DNA of 34,706 nt from Planctomycetota bacterium. Lineage in GTDB: Bacteria > Planctomycetota > PLA2 > JAEUHO01. Positions 2,378 through 11,020 of this stretch are shown here, piece after piece; within the stretch, counting starts at the first letter, position 1; each line of letters begins with the position of its first letter. The stretch covers positions 1 to 34,706 of the forward strand of contig JAQBWE010000004.1 of assembly GCA_027625315.1 (NCBI GenBank). The letters are read 5' to 3'. The notes beneath the pieces are model-generated. The model was not told where the DNA came from, did not search any database, and was given only the letters and a program-made list of their open reading frames with translations. The translations under genes were made by a program, and so were the position numbers.

Positions 2378-3366
2378 CTATAGGTCGCGGGGGTGGGCGA
2401 TCACCGTGTTGCTTTGGACCCCCACGACGCCCTTGCCGCCCGGCGACTCGACCACGAGGTGCATCCACACCTTCCGCGTGCCGCTGAGACCTGTGACCTT
2501 CACCTCGAACCCGTCCGGCTTCCACACGGCCGGATCGTCTGGGCTCAGCCGGGCCCGCCGGTAGGGATCCCCCGCCTTCGTCGGCGCGAGTTGGGTGTGG
2601 GCGTGCACGAGGCGCCCGCCCTCCCCGGCGTCGGGATCCTCTTCGATGCTCATGGGTACGACCGGCGTAGATTCGATCGTGCCGAGGCTGCCGAGCCGGA
2701 AGAACGCCTCGTCCACCGGCGCGCCGACATCCCAGGCGAGGTCGCACCCGAAGCGCCCGACGAGATCGGCCACGACGCTGCGCCGCTCATCATCGTCCTC
2801 GATGTCCTGAAGCTGGGTGAGATTGGCGTAGCGCACGCTGCGCCACACCACGAGGTCGCGGGCTGGCTGCACGGGCGCATCGAGGATCAGCTTGCGATCC
2901 GTCTCGGTGGGGTAGCAGCACACGATCCGATAGAGATCGATGTGGCGCAGCTGTGCCGTCGGTGCGTCGGCGACGGCCTCTACGGCATCGCTCTCGCGAG
3001 CGAACAGGAGGATGTTCCCCGTGTGGGGATCTCCGACCTCATCGGGAGCCAGAGCCGCGAGTGCATCCGTGCGCGGCAGGCGGGCGCCGGTCAGCAGGGG
3101 GCGCGCATCGAGCTCAAGGGCGCCGAGGTAGCCGGCACCGACGCCGTCCCCCGTCAGGAGGATCCGACTGCCGTTGACGGCCGCCAGCAGTTCATACGTC
3201 AGTCGTTCGCTGCGCTCCGTGGCGGTGCGGACGGCGCGCACACGGCGCTCGGCGCGCGTAGCGCCATCGATCGTGGCCTGCACGATGAGCGCCATGATGG
3301 AGAGGATGCCCATCATGATCGCGAGCTCGAACATCGAGAAGCCCGCTTCGTGGCGGCGGGTCGATC
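2378..3366 (-). CDS. Pseudopilin / type IV prepilin-like protein (PilW/GspJ-like position); 5' end uncertain
   Basis: Prepilin cleavage and TM motif EAG|FSMFELAIMMGILSIMALIVQATI; ORF track runs to 3610, but residues 1-76 look non-coding and no canonical start lies close upstream of the motif. Confidence 0.8.
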
Positions 3367-3596
3367 TAGCCTCCTGCGCCAGACGTTCGCTTCGATGAAC
3401 CGGCCCGGCTCCGGGGGATCGGGCGGACGTGGGATCAATGCCCGCTCGACCGCGGTCGGCGGGCTGGCTGGGGCGCGGAAGGCCGATGAGGAGGACGACT
3501 CGTGGCCGGTCCACTCGAGGACGACGAAGCGGCCTGATCGGTCCCAGCCCAGTCCGCCGCACATCCGGGATGCAACGGGACTTCGCGTTCACCACC

Positions 3597-6500
3597 TTAG
3601 CGGTTGACATAGATCTTTTCCATGTGCTGCGTGTAGTGCAGCGCCTCGTCGAGGCGGAAGCCCTCGATGCGGATCAGATACGAGCCCTGGGGGAACTCAT
3701 CCGCGGGCGTGTTCCACGTGAAGCTCTCGTCGCCGCCGGGTACCGCGTCCACGAGCGTCTGATCCGGATCGCGACCGACGCCTTCGATCCACGGCACACG
3801 GCCGGGCGTGACCGCTTCGCCGTTCAACATCGACTGCCATGTGCGGCCGTTGTCCTTCGACACCATGGGCACATAGACGAGCGAGTCGCTCGACTCGGCG
3901 AACCCATCGGGATACGAGCTCGTGTACTTCTTCCCGTCCCAGCGCGTCCACGACACGCTCCAGCGGACCTCGATGGTGCTCGGGTTGTCGAGCTCCGTAA
4001 TCAATGTAGGAGCGAGAAGCTGCATCCGCGGCAGCTGCCGGATGCGGTTGGCCGAGGACGGCAGGCCGCTGCCGAAGTAACTGTGGACGAGCGACAGCAT
4101 GCTGTAGCGGGCGATGAACGATGAGCCCGACTCCGTCGTCCGGTCGATGCCGTTCACAACGACGTACCCGCCGCGCGGGTCGAGACCCGGCTCCTGAAGC
4201 CGAATGAGGCCGCTGCCGACAAGGCCCGCGGTGCTGTGGTTGTAGTAGCGCCGCACGAGTTGGGCGCTGTAGCGCGGGAAACTGTCCGTGTAGCCAAACT
4301 CGTCCCCGACCCCGCCGCTGTAGCTGCTGGCGAGGTGGAACGGCCGGCTGATCTGCGTGCTGCTCGGGAGGGGGAAGTTGTACTCACTCGACAGCTCGGG
4401 CCCGTCCTCGACCAGGGAGCCCGAGTCGCCGCTTTTGAACTGGTGGTGATACGTGGCGCTGGAGGTCCCGATGTTGAAGAAGGAGGTGCAGCCCTCTTCC
4501 TTGGTGCGCGTGATGCTGGCGATCAGCGTGGTCCCCGTGGGTTGCTGGCTCACCGGCGACTCCTGCCGGCGGATGAGCCGGAAGGTCGCGGGCGCGGTGC
4601 CGGCGTCGGCGCGCAGGTTGCCCCACGGCTTCCACTGGGCGCCATACGCGCTATCCGGGCACAGCTCGCCCAGCCACGGCTTGCTCCACCAATGGCCGCC
4701 AGCGCGCACGCCCGCGTCCGCGCCCGAGTTCTCGCGTACGTACTTGCGGCTTCCAATGATGGCGGCCGTGCCGCCGCTCGTGGTGAGCGTGTTCTCGTTG
4801 ACATCGGTGGTCAAGCCAAAGGGCTTGCCGTCCATCGGGATGCTGTTGGCGTACCCGTTGGCGCTGTCATAGCCCACGTCGCCGCCGAGGGAGAGGTAGT
4901 AGAAGCTGAAGCCCGTCTGCGACGTCCAGAGCGCCTCGCTCTTCGTGATCGCCGTTCGCAGCCACTGGTAGACGCGCGCCACGTCGTGGCCCGCGCGCCC
5001 CTTCCAGCCGTCGCGCAGGCGCGCGCCATCGAAAGCGAGCCATGCGGACTGGGCGTTGGCCACGCCGTTGGACAAGTTGTCGAACGACCAGTTGTAGCCG
5101 TGCGGCGCGGTCGCTCCCGACCGATCCGTGTCGGCGTAGGGCGAGTGGCGGGGGTCGCCCTGGAACTGGTACCGCTCGCTAAACGGCACGGTCGCGGGAT
5201 CCGCATGGAACCAGGCGAAGGTGCGCGAGAGGTTGCGCGGCTCGTTGCGCGTGGGCCACTGCGTGCCGGCTTCCAGGTCGGTGCCGATCCGGGTCTCGAC
5301 CGCCAGGAGCCGATCCGTCGCGTCGCCATCGCCGGCGCCCGGTGCTGAGGCCAGGACGGTGCGCACGGAGTCGAGCGGCAGGGTGATGCGCCAACGCGCG
5401 GTGTTCTTGGGAGCATTGCCGCTCCAGGCGAGGTCGCGCGTGAAACGATTGGCGTCGGTCGCGCTATCCGGCGTGGGGCAGGGGATGTAGTCCAGGTCGT
5501 AGAGGCGCCATCCGGCGGGCAAGCCCTGAGACCCCACGGCGGGCGTTTCGAGGGGCGTACCGTGGAGCGTGATCACGCTGCGGTTGCCGGCCGCATCGAA
5601 CACGGCCTCGAACCACATCTCGCCGCGCTCGACGCCGCCGTCGCGCACGCCATTCATGTTGGTGTCGAAGAACGTCTCGCCTGCGCCCCAGATGGTGTCG
5701 CCATCGAGATCAAGGAAGGGCTCGCCGTACGCAGCGACGTACGAGGCCTCGGCGCCGATGTTGCCGTACGCGGCCGGATTCCAAGGCTGCCACGCGGGCG
5801 GTAGCTCCATGGTCGGTCCGTCGCGCAGGCCGTTCTTGTTGCGGTCCCAGTAGGGCTCCGGGGCATCCCAAACGCCGTCACCATCCGCGTCGACGAACGA
5901 CTCAGCCGGGCGGGCGGGATCGAAGATGCCATCGCCGTCGCCATCGACGAACGACTCGGCCGTGGCGCTATACGCGCCATCGCCGTCGAGCTCCTGATGC
6001 GGATCGTATGCATCCTTGACGCCGTTGCCGTCCAGGTCGAACCAAGTCTCGACCACCTGCCGAATGCCGTCGCCGTTGGTGTCGGAGAGCGCCTCGGGGT
6101 ACTGCGTCGCGGCTTCGAACGCCCGGTACGGATCGGCCGTACCGTCGCCATCGGCGTCGATGCCTCCGGGCAGTCGCTCGACGACGAGCGACGGCGAAAG
6201 GACGGCGTTGGTCGCCCGGGTCCAGTCCGCTCCGGGTAGCACTAGCGTGGCGGGTACGCCGGCCGTCCATTGGCCATCGCCATTCCAATCCTCGAACGCT
6301 TCGCCGGCGCCGCGCTTGCCGTCGCCATCGAGGTCGGCAAACGGCTCGGCCTGCTCCATCAGCACGGCCGCGCCCGACGGCCCGTCGAACGCCGCCTTCC
6401 AAGCGTGGACGCGGAAGCGCGGGACGACGGCGGGCAGCCCGCCCAGAGCGACGCGCCGGGGCATGAGGTGCTCCGGGTGCGTCACGACGCGCCAGCCGGG

Positions 6501-7715
6501 GTGCTGCTCCGGCGCCGCGGCGGCGTCGCTGATGTTGCGCACAGGCGGCATGGGCAGCAGCTCGCCGTGCAGGTTCACGATGAGCGCGTTGTGGTACCGA
6601 TCGGGCTCCGCCACCATGCGGTCGAGCAGGATGCGCCAGGTCGGTGTGTCGTCGGTCTCGAGGCCCGCGTCGACGCGCGCCTCGTGGCGCGCGAGCGCCT
6701 CGGGGTAGCGCTTGCAGTGGTTCTGCATGTCGGCCAGGGCATAGGGCACCTCGTTGCCGACATCCCAGCGGTCGTCACCGTTGGTGTCGGTGAAGGGCTC
6801 GCCCATGTCGTAGGCCCCGTTGCCGTTCGAATCCGTGTACGACTCAGCTGAAAGGAAGTCGCCCACGTGGTTGGGTGTGGACACGCCATCGCGGTTCATG
6901 CGCGCCGCCATGCGCTCAGGGACGTAGTAGCGCTGCGACGCGTTCCCGGCGGGCATGGAGCCGGGATAGACGTACGCCCAGGGCGTGTCGTCCGTGCTGC
7001 TCCGCGCTTCGTTCGTGTACGGCGCGTACTCCTCGTCGCGGCCGTAGCCCAGCTTCGTGATCCAGTGCGTACGGAACTTGAGACCCGGATTGCGGCCCTC
7101 GAGATCGCGGAGCGTCGCTTCGACGAACGGCTGGATGCTGTCCATGAACACCCACCAGCCCGGCACGTTCTCGCAGGCCACGAGGAACACGTCGTAGACC
7201 TGGGTCGTGGGGAAGGCATCCCCCACCGTGCGAATCACGGAAGACACATCGGCCATCAGCTCGCCGGGCAGCGTATCGCCCGGACGCACGCGGTAGACCT
7301 GCACCGTACAGATGCGCAGGTCGCGCGTCGCAACGCCGGGGAACGGCCGTACGGTGATGCGGCGCTGCCAGCGCCACTCGCCGCGATCTCTGATGTTGCC
7401 CGAGACCACGTTGCCAGCCGGCAGATACGCCGTCGGCTCGACCGGATCCGGCTGAATGGTCAGCGAGGGGACGTACGCGACGCCGTCGTCGAAGCCGTCG
7501 AGATCTGCGGCCACTTCGCCCTCGCCGCCCTCAACGAACGAGCGCAGCTCGGCGAGCATCGCCATGGCCTTCTGGCGGGCGAAGGCGCGGTCGCGCACCC
7601 AGTCGCTGTGCTGCGTATCGCGGAGGACGAACGCGATGCCCGCCATGGCCGCGACGGCCATGACCGAAACCGCGATGAGTACCTCAATGAGACCGAAGCC
7701 GCGCGCGCGAGTCAT
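3597..7715 (-). CDS. Giant pseudopilin-like protein (1372 aa) with many EF-hand/dockerin-like Ca-binding loops
   Basis: N-terminus MTRARG|FGLIEVLIAVSVMAVAAMAGIAFVLRD is a canonical prepilin motif; interior carries about 13 D-x-[DN]-x-[DN]-G-type loops; start overlaps upstream stop by 1 nt (TAATG). Confidence 0.92.
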   Translation of the reverse strand: MTRARGFGLIEVLIAVSVMAVAAMAGIAFVLRDTQHSDWVRDRAFARQKAMAMLAELRSFVEGGEGEVAADLDGFDDGVAYVPSLTIQPDPVEPTAYLPAGNVVSGNIRDRGEWRWQRRITVRPFPGVATRDLRICTVQVYRVRPGDTLPGELMADVSSVIRTVGDAFPTTQVYDVFLVACENVPGWWVFMDSIQPFVEATLRDLEGRNPGLKFRTHWITKLGYGRDEEYAPYTNEARSSTDDTPWAYVYPGSMPAGNASQRYYVPERMAARMNRDGVSTPNHVGDFLSAESYTDSNGNGAYDMGEPFTDTNGDDRWDVGNEVPYALADMQNHCKRYPEALARHEARVDAGLETDDTPTWRILLDRMVAEPDRYHNALIVNLHGELLPMPPVRNISDAAAAPEQHPGWRVVTHPEHLMPRRVALGGLPAVVPRFRVHAWKAAFDGPSGAAVLMEQAEPFADLDGDGKRGAGEAFEDWNGDGQWTAGVPATLVLPGADWTRATNAVLSPSLVVERLPGGIDADGDGTADPYRAFEAATQYPEALSDTNGDGIRQVVETWFDLDGNGVKDAYDPHQELDGDGAYSATAESFVDGDGDGIFDPARPAESFVDADGDGVWDAPEPYWDRNKNGLRDGPTMELPPAWQPWNPAAYGNIGAEASYVAAYGEPFLDLDGDTIWGAGETFFDTNMNGVRDGGVERGEMWFEAVFDAAGNRSVITLHGTPLETPAVGSQGLPAGWRLYDLDYIPCPTPDSATDANRFTRDLAWSGNAPKNTARWRITLPLDSVRTVLASAPGAGDGDATDRLLAVETRIGTDLEAGTQWPTRNEPRNLSRTFAWFHADPATVPFSERYQFQGDPRHSPYADTDRSGATAPHGYNWSFDNLSNGVANAQSAWLAFDGARLRDGWKGRAGHDVARVYQWLRTAITKSEALWTSQTGFSFYYLSLGGDVGYDSANGYANSIPMDGKPFGLTTDVNENTLTTSGGTAAIIGSRKYVRENSGADAGVRAGGHWWSKPWLGELCPDSAYGAQWKPWGNLRADAGTAPATFRLIRRQESPVSQQPTGTTLIASITRTKEEGCTSFFNIGTSSATYHHQFKSGDSGSLVEDGPELSSEYNFPLPSSTQISRPFHLASSYSGGVGDEFGYTDSFPRYSAQLVRRYYNHSTAGLVGSGLIRLQEPGLDPRGGYVVVNGIDRTTESGSSFIARYSMLSLVHSYFGSGLPSSANRIRQLPRMQLLAPTLITELDNPSTIEVRWSVSWTRWDGKKYTSSYPDGFAESSDSLVYVPMVSKDNGRTWQSMLNGEAVTPGRVPWIEGVGRDPDQTLVDAVPGGDESFTWNTPADEFPQGSYLIRIEGFRLDEALHYTQHMEKIYVNR
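5620..6355 (-). repeat. Main array of Ca-loop-encoding repeats inside the giant pseudopilin
   Basis: DLDGDGKRG, DWNGDGQWT, DADGDGTAD, DTNGDGIRQ, DLDGNGVKD, LDGDGAYSA, DGDGDGIFD, DADGDGVWD, DRNKNGLRD, DLDGDTIWG, DTNMNGVRD; includes an 18-aa near-repeat AESFVDGDGDGIFDPARP / AESFVDADGDGVWDAPEP. Coordinates approximate. Confidence 0.8.
6752..6840 (-). repeat. Second, separate pair of Ca-loop repeats in the giant pseudopilin
   Basis: DSNGNGAYDMGEPFTDTNGDDRWDVGNE. Confidence 0.75.
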
Positions 7716-9145
7716 TAGGGAGTTCCTTCGCTGAGGCTCGGCGCCGGATCGCCGTCCAGCTTGTAGGTGGCCTTGCTCGGGCGATAGCTGCCCATGCGCG
7801 TCATGAGTTCATCGACGATCGCGCCGTCGTACTCCAGTTCGGCGTGATCGCCGCCGGTGCCGCGCACCTCGATGCGATCGCCTGCGATGCAGACGCCGCG
7901 GAGGTAGCAGGGGCCCTCAATGACCAAGTCGTCGCCGACCCACAGTACGCCGTTGAAGAACGAGGCTGAGCCCGAGCTCAAGGTGCAGTCGCCCGTCACG
8001 ATCACCACGCCCGTGCCGCGTAGCGGACGGGCGCTATCAAACACCGCGTCGCCTTCGATCACCGTGAGCGTGTACTCGCCGAGGTCGGCGGGCAGGATGG
8101 TGTGGTCCGTCACGGCCACATCGGCCATACCGCGCAGCGCGGTCAGGTTGTTGCCAAACACCTTGCCAAGGGAGAAGTCAAAGCCCGGGATTGAGGCCGT
8201 CGAGGGCGCCCCCGTGACCTGGCTTCCGCTCTGGAGGACCGGCGAGGCCGTGCCCTCGCGGTACCCGATGCCCGCCCCGGAGCTCCCGCGCACGCGGCCT
8301 CGCGAGCCGATCGTGACGCGATAGCCGTTCTGGGCACAGATGGCGGCGGCGGCCGGCGGCGTGATGGTCATGCGGCGCAGCTCGGTGGCCGCCGCGTAGG
8401 TAGCGAACCGCGTATTCGGTCCTTCGCCAAGGGGCTGGGCCGCGCGCGGGCGCCGGTAGAGGCTGCCGCGACTCTCAATCATCCAGACGGAGCCCGCCCC
8501 CACCTGGCCCCGCGCGCTAGAGACATCGCGCGTGCCGTGGGCGCGATCGCGCCGGCCGTTCTCGTTGGTGTCGAGGAACTCGTCGATGCCGTCCTCGTAG
8601 ATGCCGTTGCCATTGGTGTCCGTGAAGGCTTCAGCGGGCGACCCCAGGCGCACCTCGTACCGCGCCCAAATGCCAGGCGTGATCTCGTACTCGCGCGTCA
8701 GCCCCAGGTCGGGGTCCGCGGTCTCGTTTACCGGCGGGTTCGCCTCGAGGTCGAGCCGCGGCGCGAAGGCAGTCACGGGTTGCACCGTTTGACGGCGGAA
8801 CCAAGAGAGGGACTCCGCCACGCCGGCCAACGCGACTTCGCGGGCTCTTGCCGGCGCGACGATGTCGTACTCAGTGATGCCCTGACCCGCACGGCTCGAC
8901 TCTGAGCTCGAGGCGATGATGCCGGCCAGCATGAGCACGGAGAACACGGCGATGAGGAGGGCGTAACCCCGCTCCGCGGCAGGGCGGCCACGCGGGGTCG
9001 AACCGGTAAGGGGGGCAGGCATGTAGGGGCTACGTTCTGCTGCCGCATCCGAGCATCTCACGCTCATCCCGGGGGACAACCGGGATGTACGCCCTATCGG
9101 CCGGGGCTGCGCGGGTAAGCGAGTCGTTTTCATGGAGCGCCTCAC
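7715..9145 (-). CDS. PilX/GspK-like pilus assembly protein with Ca-loop pair; ATG alternative start at 9133
   Basis: 476 aa; ERGYALLIAVFSVLMLAGIIASSSESSRAG hydrophobic N-terminal helix; EAFTDTNGNGIYEDGIDEFLDTNENGRRD loops; TAATG coupling to the downstream gene. Confidence 0.8.
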   Translation of the reverse strand: MRRSMKTTRLPAQPRPIGRTSRLSPGMSVRCSDAAAERSPYMPAPLTGSTPRGRPAAERGYALLIAVFSVLMLAGIIASSSESSRAGQGITEYDIVAPARAREVALAGVAESLSWFRRQTVQPVTAFAPRLDLEANPPVNETADPDLGLTREYEITPGIWARYEVRLGSPAEAFTDTNGNGIYEDGIDEFLDTNENGRRDRAHGTRDVSSARGQVGAGSVWMIESRGSLYRRPRAAQPLGEGPNTRFATYAAATELRRMTITPPAAAAICAQNGYRVTIGSRGRVRGSSGAGIGYREGTASPVLQSGSQVTGAPSTASIPGFDFSLGKVFGNNLTALRGMADVAVTDHTILPADLGEYTLTVIEGDAVFDSARPLRGTGVVIVTGDCTLSSGSASFFNGVLWVGDDLVIEGPCYLRGVCIAGDRIEVRGTGGDHAELEYDGAIVDELMTRMGSYRPSKATYKLDGDPAPSLSEGTP

Positions 9146-9547
9146 CTAGCGCCTGTCGCCGGCCGGGCGCTCGGCGCGTTCGCGGTCGCGGGCCTCGCGC
9201 TCCGCGCGCATCTTCTCGAGCAGACGCTCGATGAGCTCGTCGGCCTCACGCTGGCTGGCGGTGCTGGGCGCCTGCCGCGGGGCAGGGGGCCGCGCGGGAG
9301 CCTGGACGACCGGAGCCGAGAGCAGGACCGGCTCCTCCTCGACAAGCGGAACGGTGCCGAACGAGCCGTCGGCGGCTGCGCCGGTCGCCTGGCCGCTCGA
9401 CGCGTCGGCGACGGCAAGGAGGACGCCGAGCGCCGCCAGCAGGAGGCCGGCGAGCCAAACGGCGGAGCGTGTACGGGAGCGGGCCGGAGCCAGGGGACTG
9501 CGGGGAGACACGGCGGCAGCGCCTCTCTTCCCACCACGAGGCCCCAT
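9146..9547 (-). CDS. Small single-TM hypothetical protein, first gene of the pilin-like cluster
   Basis: ORF with TM segment SAVWLAGLLLAALGVLLAVADAS and charged coiled-coil C-terminus; stop directly precedes the next gene; ATG at 9547 preferred over 9595. Confidence 0.6.
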   Translation of the reverse strand: MGPRGGKRGAAAVSPRSPLAPARSRTRSAVWLAGLLLAALGVLLAVADASSGQATGAAADGSFGTVPLVEEEPVLLSAPVVQAPARPPAPRQAPSTASQREADELIERLLEKMRAEREARDRERAERPAGDRR

Positions 9548-9740
9548 CGACCCGCGGTGGCCCCCCTGCGGAGCCGCATCTGCAGGCGGTCTCAAACCGG
9601 GACAGCGGCCCTAGGGACTTTAGGCCCGCCCGACCGCCCGGCGGGGCCTGGGCCCCGGCTCAGGGAGGTCCGTAGGCAACCCGCGGCTAGGCTTAGGCGT
9701 CCCTGTAGGCAGTACCCGCTGCACCCCCAAGGAGATCCCC

Positions 9741-10958
9741 GTGGACCGATTCCCCTTCCGAGCGCTGCTGACCGCGTCGCTCGCCGCTGCGCTGCTGTGC
9801 GTGGCCGCCGCCCCGCTCGCCCTCGCCGAGGGTGAGGATCTCGAGGGCGCAGGCATTCAGTGGATCGATGGCTGGGCCGCTGGCCAGGCCAAGGCAACTG
9901 AGGGCGGCAAGCTCTGCTTTGTCTACTTCGGCCGCAAGACTCCCACCTGACCCCCCTGCGTGCAGCTTGAGAACCGTGTGTTCTCCACCGCCGACAGCAA
10001 GCAGATCAGCGACAAGTACGTGGCAGTCCGCCTCCTTGGCGGCAACGACCTCGACGACGAAGGCCGTGACTTCATGCAGCGCTACGGCGTGCAGGGCTAC
10101 CCGACGTTGTTGGCGATGACCCCCGACGGCGCCGTCCTCGGCACCGACTTCCAGCGCGACGTCGCGGGCATTCTCGCCACGATGGATCAGGCCGCCACGG
10201 CCGATCAGAACTTCCGCACGAAGGCCAAGGAGCTGGGTGCCTCAAAGTTGCCCGAGGCCGTGCGCACGATGGCGGGCCTGTACAAGGACCGCATGCAGTG
10301 GGCCGAGGCCCGCACTCGCTACGAGCAGCTCGTCGCAGCCGGCGGCAGCGTTGAGGACAAGATGAGCCTGCTCGACGTGCTCGGGAAGGTCAACGACGTG
10401 CCCGCGCGCAAGGAATTGCTCGCGAAGCTTGTGAGCACGTGCAGCGATCGCCCGGAGTGCATCCAGTGGCGCATCGACCTGGCGACCGCTGACCTGCCGA
10501 CCGTCATTCGCAGCCGCGACGAGTACGTCGCGATGCTCGAGAAGAAGAAGACCGCTCTCGAAGGTCTGCTGAGTGAGGTCAAGTCGGCTGGCGACCAGGC
10601 CGTCGTCCGCAACGAACTCGCCAACGCGCTGTCCGGCACGGGCGACAAGGACGGCGCTGCGGCGCATTGGGACTGGATCCTCGCGAACGCGAAGGATTGC
10701 CCGGCGGTGCCCGACGCCCTCTGGGGCAAGGCCATCGCTGCCGTGAACGGCGGCTACATGGACTCCGACGTGGCCATGGTCAAGGAGGGCCGCGCGCTGC
10801 TTCAGAAGATCGTGGACGAGCACGGCTCGCACCAGATCGCGGGCCAGGCGCGGCGCGCGCTCATGCAGGTCGAGCAACTCATCACCCAGCTCGAAGCCAA
10901 GGCTGGCGGCGACGAGGATGGTGGCGATGACGACGACGGTGACGAAGAGGACAAGTAG
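9741..10958 (+). CDS. Secreted thioredoxin-fold protein, candidate selenoprotein with in-frame UGA (Sec70) in a UPPC motif
   Basis: GTG 9741 with SD aaggag, signal peptide, ...KLCFVYFGRKTPT-[TGA 9948-9950]-PPCVQLENRVFSTADSKQISDKYVAVRLLGG...YGVQGYPTLLAMTPDG (cis-Pro thioredoxin motif); frame is maintained to TAG 10958 (405 codons plus stop), followed by a helical repeat-like region and acidic tail. Confidence 0.85.
9969..9985 (+). promoter_or_regulatory. Candidate bacterial SECIS-like hairpin
   Basis: GAGAAC-CGTGT-GTTCTC, perfect 6-bp stem; loop starts 24 nt after the TGA and has G as its second base. Confidence 0.55.
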
Positions 10959-10987
10959 TCCCCACCGCGCCCAGTGACCCAACGAAG

Positions 10988-11020
10988 CCGCCCCGTCTTC
11001 GCACGGGGCGGTTTCATTTT
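10988..11020 (+). terminator. Intrinsic terminator after the thioredoxin-like gene
   Basis: CCGCCCCGT-CTTCGC-ACGGGGCGG perfect 9-bp stem followed by TTTCATTTTT. Confidence 0.9.

Follow-up and report, generated by a model that had tools for sequence, protein, structure and literature searches.

The internal UGA of the gene at 9741–10958 of the window (the whole stretch of 34,706 nt analyzed here, which is contig C145 of a 3.2 Mb planctomycetotal metagenome-assembled genome, 342 contigs, 92% complete) is almost certainly read as selenocysteine. We have very little doubt that the gene encodes an exported selenoprotein in which Sec70 is inserted via a SECIS element and SelB, namely, a thioredoxin-fold oxidoreductase with a UPPC motif, carried on a TPR-like solenoid with an acidic tail. 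The position of the selenocysteine, the SECIS element, the decoding machinery, and the combination of a thioredoxin fold with TPR are supported by comparative and structural computation.

When TGA is translated as U, the gene gives one frame of 405 aa (...YFGRKTPT-U-PPCVQLENRVFS...), with codon 70 as the sole in-frame TGA. The first-pass annotation had described two ORFs in the same frame separated by this TGA, flanked by a ribosome-binding site and a terminator. Indeed, the ORFs of 69 aa and 332 aa share one frame, with just the TGA and the PPC codons between them, and both flanking signals were found (Table 1); the AGGAGA upstream of the GTG is also present in the same-genus orthologs. The claim that TGA is otherwise a normal stop codon was borne out as well: it ends 11 of the 25 genes called in the whole window, and two orthologs of the gene themselves terminate with TGA. 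Thus, the UGA at codon 70 requires local recoding.

Table 1. Predicted features of the selenoprotein gene and its flanks, in positions of the window.
Feature	Position	Strand	Details and basis
Shine-Dalgarno motif AGGAG	9730-9734	+	Sequence; 6 nt upstream of the GTG start
Selenoprotein gene (predicted)	9741-10958	+	GTG start, UGA(Sec) at codon 70, TAG stop, 405 aa
Sec-type signal peptide (probable), residues 1-30	9741-9830	+	Judged by eye; cleavage ...AAAPLALA/EG (slash marks the site)
Thioredoxin-fold domain, about residues 39-150, cis-Pro P121	9855-10190	+	PF13098/PF13899, predicted fold, DsbH match
UGA codon taken as selenocysteine, Sec70 of UPPC	9948-9950	+	TGA in all close orthologs; distant relatives lacking TGA have a Cys codon
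UPPC redox motif, Cys73 resolving	9948-9959	+	Invariant in nine members
Bacterial SECIS hairpin (predicted)	9969-9985	+	6-bp stem 9969-9974/9980-9985, loop CGUGU 9975-9979, 24 nt from UGA
TPR-like helical solenoid, about residues 181-390	10281-10910	+	Pfam TPR matches, profile matches to TPR structures, helices of the model
Acidic tail, probably disordered	10908-10955	+	Sequence; pLDDT <50
Intrinsic terminator	10984-11015	+	13-bp hairpin with T-tail

The distribution of this codon among relatives was analyzed in 101 genomes, the own genome and 100 relatives. The close relatives of the read-through protein contain one in-frame TGA each, and all 10 long relatives, from nine other genomes, have TGA at the equivalent of codon 70 (G002–G006, G009, G017, G043 with two copies, and G164). 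When 395 genomes from the phylum were searched with a profile, long orthologs turned up within the family to which the window belongs and in three genomes from two additional families, and TGA was present in each of them. For the wider relatives, whose hits were translated with TGA read through, the aligned codon was TGA in 27 of 34 places, TGC or TGT in the other seven, and nothing else, as expected from the first-pass proposal that homologs would have Cys or TGA there; as position 70 of the query was Cys, the 27 to 7 count is subject to some selection bias. Down to about 28–33% protein identity, genomes retain the TGA together with the surrounding UPPC and the frame that follows, and a distant relative in G007 has CPPC instead of UPPC. 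In nine members, Y62, R65, P68, U70, P71, P72, C73, E77, and P121 do not vary, which agrees with the earlier assignment of the UGA to the first Cys of a CxxC motif with the resolving Cys and the cis-Pro intact. In the closest pair, dN/dS stays below 1 both upstream (0.17) and downstream (0.42) of the UGA; saturation of dS makes the ratio uninformative for the most distant pairs. A scan of a contig collection yielded one relative only, in which the matched stretch is identical to the G005 copy, and tblastn with the protein gave no match in a plasmid collection. The family tree is poorly resolved and does not give the order of the Sec and Cys states. A paralog in G005 (L065:3452-4792, plus strand) has neither Sec nor Cys at the active site and retains the TPR part; it is probably a non-catalytic form, so that not every member of the wider family would have a redox role.

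A search for the Sec machinery, as proposed by the first-pass annotation, was successful in part. The own genome contains a tRNA-Sec (68.8 bits, which exceeds the Rfam cut-off; anticodon UCA) and the N-terminal part of selB, above the cut-off and broken at a contig end; the probable C-terminal piece lies at the end of another contig, where the match is weak. Neither selA nor selD was found in the own 342-contig, 92%-complete assembly, and a weak selD match was rejected because it represents ThiL. By contrast, selA was found in all 10 other genomes of the same genus and family that were searched and, at E ≤ 0.001, in 82 of the 101 genomes, 75 of these above the curated cut-off. In G004, which belongs to the same genus, selA adjoins selD, and a single assembly gap could therefore explain both absences. 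The selD gene of G004 (L060:5555-6598, minus strand), located directly after selA, has a UGA at the SelD active site (GGUAAK), and this SelD would probably itself be a selenoprotein. UGA codons also occur in three other redox genes of the own genome (L096, L097, and L100 on contigs C54, C322, and C136, respectively): at the peroxidatic position of an AhpC-like peroxiredoxin (TFV-U-ATEF) and of a PrxQ-like protein (TPG-U-TTE), and at the catalytic Cys, in a U-GPC motif, of a TlpA-like protein. All three are candidates for further selenoproteins of the same organism. The tRNA-Sec, selB, selA in the relatives, and the other genes with UGA at Cys positions indicate that the host very probably decodes UGA as Sec.

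Folding of the 48 nt from the UGA gave a 6-bp stem with the loop CGUGU, at −8.7 kcal/mol. The bSECIS model asks for a loop of 3–9 nt, a stem of 4–16 bp, a G within the first two loop positions, a distance of 16–37 nt from the UGA, and a minimum free energy of at most −7.5 kcal/mol (PMC13188914). The window hairpin satisfies all four constraints given there, that is, spacing, loop, stem, and energy, and the same rule is satisfied by 22 of 25 distinct Sec genes of the phylum, compared to 23% of TGAs taken at random from the same DNA. When the codons were redrawn with the protein fixed, the 25 real genes formed stabler hairpins at an offset of +15 from the UGA (mean z −1.46); at the other offsets, the mean z was between −0.46 and +0.73. 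The window hairpin alone had no excess stability, either versus shuffles (z −0.57) or versus synonymous variants (z −0.16), and an Rfam scan of the region gave nothing above the gathering score. A single fixed register for the 25 genes was rejected because some of them have the hairpin at a slightly shifted position; covariation was therefore counted on the 13 sequences with the window's register. Among these, 95.6% of the cells were paired, and in two pairs both partners were changed, among them a C-G to G-C swap. Pairing in the SECIS region amounted to 43% of the cells for the Cys relatives, represented by only seven sequences, versus 73% for the Sec genes. The sequences of the set are related, so that these counts are not independent. 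Support for the putative SECIS thus comes from the set of relatives; the window hairpin alone would not convince.

Three other explanations of the in-frame TGA have to be weighed against selenocysteine. Decoding of UGA as a different amino acid (Trp or Cys), whether through a suppressor resembling tRNA-Sec or under a changed genetic code, would be in line with an own assembly that lacks selA and selD, and Cys is indeed the aligned residue in the non-TGA relatives. However, the ordinary use of TGA as a stop codon in the window genes and in two orthologs, the presence of selA in all close relatives, a SelD in G004 that itself uses UGA, and the conserved SECIS at the UGA all speak against it, and we regard such decoding as very unlikely. 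It is extremely improbable that the locus instead specifies two products, an exported peptide of 69 residues and a helical protein of 332 residues started internally at GTG 9960. Both ORFs exist, and selenoprotein genes usually show some termination at the Sec UGA, but the PPC codons between the UGA and GTG 9960 are invariant and this GTG has no obvious Shine-Dalgarno motif. In addition, a truncated thioredoxin fold that lacks the resolving Cys would make little sense, as would a second part that has no signal peptide.

Pseudogenes, and sequencing or assembly errors that turn a sense codon into TGA, are a frequent cause of isolated in-frame stops in metagenome assemblies. Here, however, the TGA occupies the exact same codon, with intact downstream frames, in independent genomes of the genus, the family, and other families. 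Together, the conserved TGA codon and the conserved downstream coding sequence exclude error and decay, leaving this explanation a negligible probability. A base-calling error at the TGA, which the first-pass annotation had listed as a possible refutation, is thus excluded in practice because independent genomes carry the codon, and its contention that the frame beyond the UGA has not decayed stands. Taken together, the TGA of the orthologs, the SECIS set, and the tRNA-Sec and selB of the host support the selenoprotein reading that it had put forward.

The first-pass annotation had also described a secreted redox domain followed by a helical region and an acidic tail. A thioredoxin fold and TPR-like helices were indeed recovered. 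The signal peptide was assigned by visual inspection, and a lipoprotein-type LAAC occurs at this place in the ortholog L023. Against Pfam, the window protein scored 26.7 for PF13098 and 25.5 for PF13899 (cut-off 27), and its match to PF00085 had an E value of 0.2. Thioredoxin_2/Thioredoxin_7 are matched by eight of the nine family members at E ≤ 0.01, and the related L066 protein is above the PF13899 cut-off. TPR_14, TPR_6, TPR_16, and TPR_19 matches, to repeats built of helical pairs of 34 residues in tandem, occur in family members, and none of the TPR repeats of the window protein is above its Pfam cut-off. The AlphaFold model, which is of moderate confidence (pLDDT 69.7) because it was built from two sequences only, has a thioredoxin core arranged beta-alpha-beta, where Sec70 sits at the N-terminal end of a helix, and then a long helical solenoid (pLDDT about 82–95 from residue 221; lower in the thioredoxin domain). 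Foldseek matches to this model were TPR proteins, including BamD, as well as DsbH, and the profile matches were to TPR structures and a putative disulfide isomerase.

Thioredoxin-fold selenoproteins with UxxC are a well-known kind. The classical Sec-thioredoxin (PF00085) has the same UxxC chemistry as the window protein but is small and cytoplasmic. The disulfide reductase DsbH (NF043050, PDB 2ju5) likewise has an exported thioredoxin-fold domain (TM 0.63 by target length, rmsd 2.9), but it is a short Cys protein without a tail, and the window protein reaches only 18.5 bits versus a cut-off of 190. The Trx7/PDZ (seleno)protein NF041199 shares a Thioredoxin_7-type N-terminal domain within a larger selenoprotein, but has a PDZ tail and, according to PMC13188914, a CxxU motif; the window protein scores 18.5 versus its cut-off of 300. 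Also of the UxxC kind is the thiol:disulfide interchange selenoprotein WP_011366075.1 (PF13098), tabulated in PMC13188914, which, by its description in that table, has in common with the window protein a Thioredoxin_2-type fold with Sec at the first CxxC position. In the window protein, this type of domain is instead joined to an acidic-tailed, TPR-like solenoid. No NCBIfam family was above its cut-off for the window protein (best, TsoB 20.4/805 and Trx7/PDZ 18.5/300), no family with a signal peptide, thioredoxin fold, TPR, and acidic tail was recognized in the table of the 2026 inventory, and a literature search of article texts yielded no description of one. The earlier suggestion of an undescribed family therefore needs to be narrowed: the UxxC Thioredoxin_2-type kind is already known, whereas the full architecture has no NCBIfam match and was not found in the passages covered of the 2026 inventory. 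As far as these sources go, the protein is a known kind of selenoprotein in an apparently uncatalogued domain combination.

For other planctomycetes, selenoproteins are already on record (PMC4807772). Besides the family of the window protein, a broader one in Planctomycetota has the motif YF(T/S)RSYxxU(P/G)PC, a UGA with a SECIS-like hairpin, and a tail of about 200 residues that looks helical (L027, L028, L030, L032, L033, L036, L037, L040, and L046); for the three members scanned, no NCBIfam family was above the cut-off. Tentatively, both families might belong to a phylum-wide, largely uncatalogued planctomycetotal expansion of exported selenoproteins with a thioredoxin domain and a helical tail, a selenium-dependent envelope thiol/disulfide system with TPR selecting the substrates, an idea to which we give somewhat less than even chances.

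Adjoining the selenoprotein gene, a cluster of prepilin-like genes occupies 2378–9595 of the window on the minus strand, and the gene order is kept in G003–G006, where the ortholog adjoins the same divergent genes. One member of the cluster, of 1372 aa, has the PF07963 methylation motif and many D-x-D-G-D repeats. Envelope or pilus-like proteins are thus possible clients, a weak lead because a gene order shared within one family may reflect descent alone. A deoxyhypusine-synthase family protein, uncommon in bacteria, is encoded at 1221–2318 on the minus strand (PF01916, 256 bits), and homologs of it are located near the ortholog in several relatives, too.

In the favored reading, SelB with Sec-tRNA(Sec) binds the in-frame SECIS hairpin past the UGA, and selenocysteine is inserted at position 70. 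Export, the direction of electron flow, and the substrates can only be inferred. Sec70 of the mature protein may then attack a disulfide, with Cys73 resolving the mixed bond, so that it would most likely reduce or isomerize disulfides of envelope proteins, while the TPR part may dock substrates or partners, such as a client protein. Under ordinary annotation, the gene would appear as two ORFs, and the catalytic residue would be lost. Planctomycetota genomes contain several UGA-containing redox families, the proteins of which are likely to be split or truncated in databases, and the window protein is a concrete candidate for the use of selenium in the bacterial envelope.
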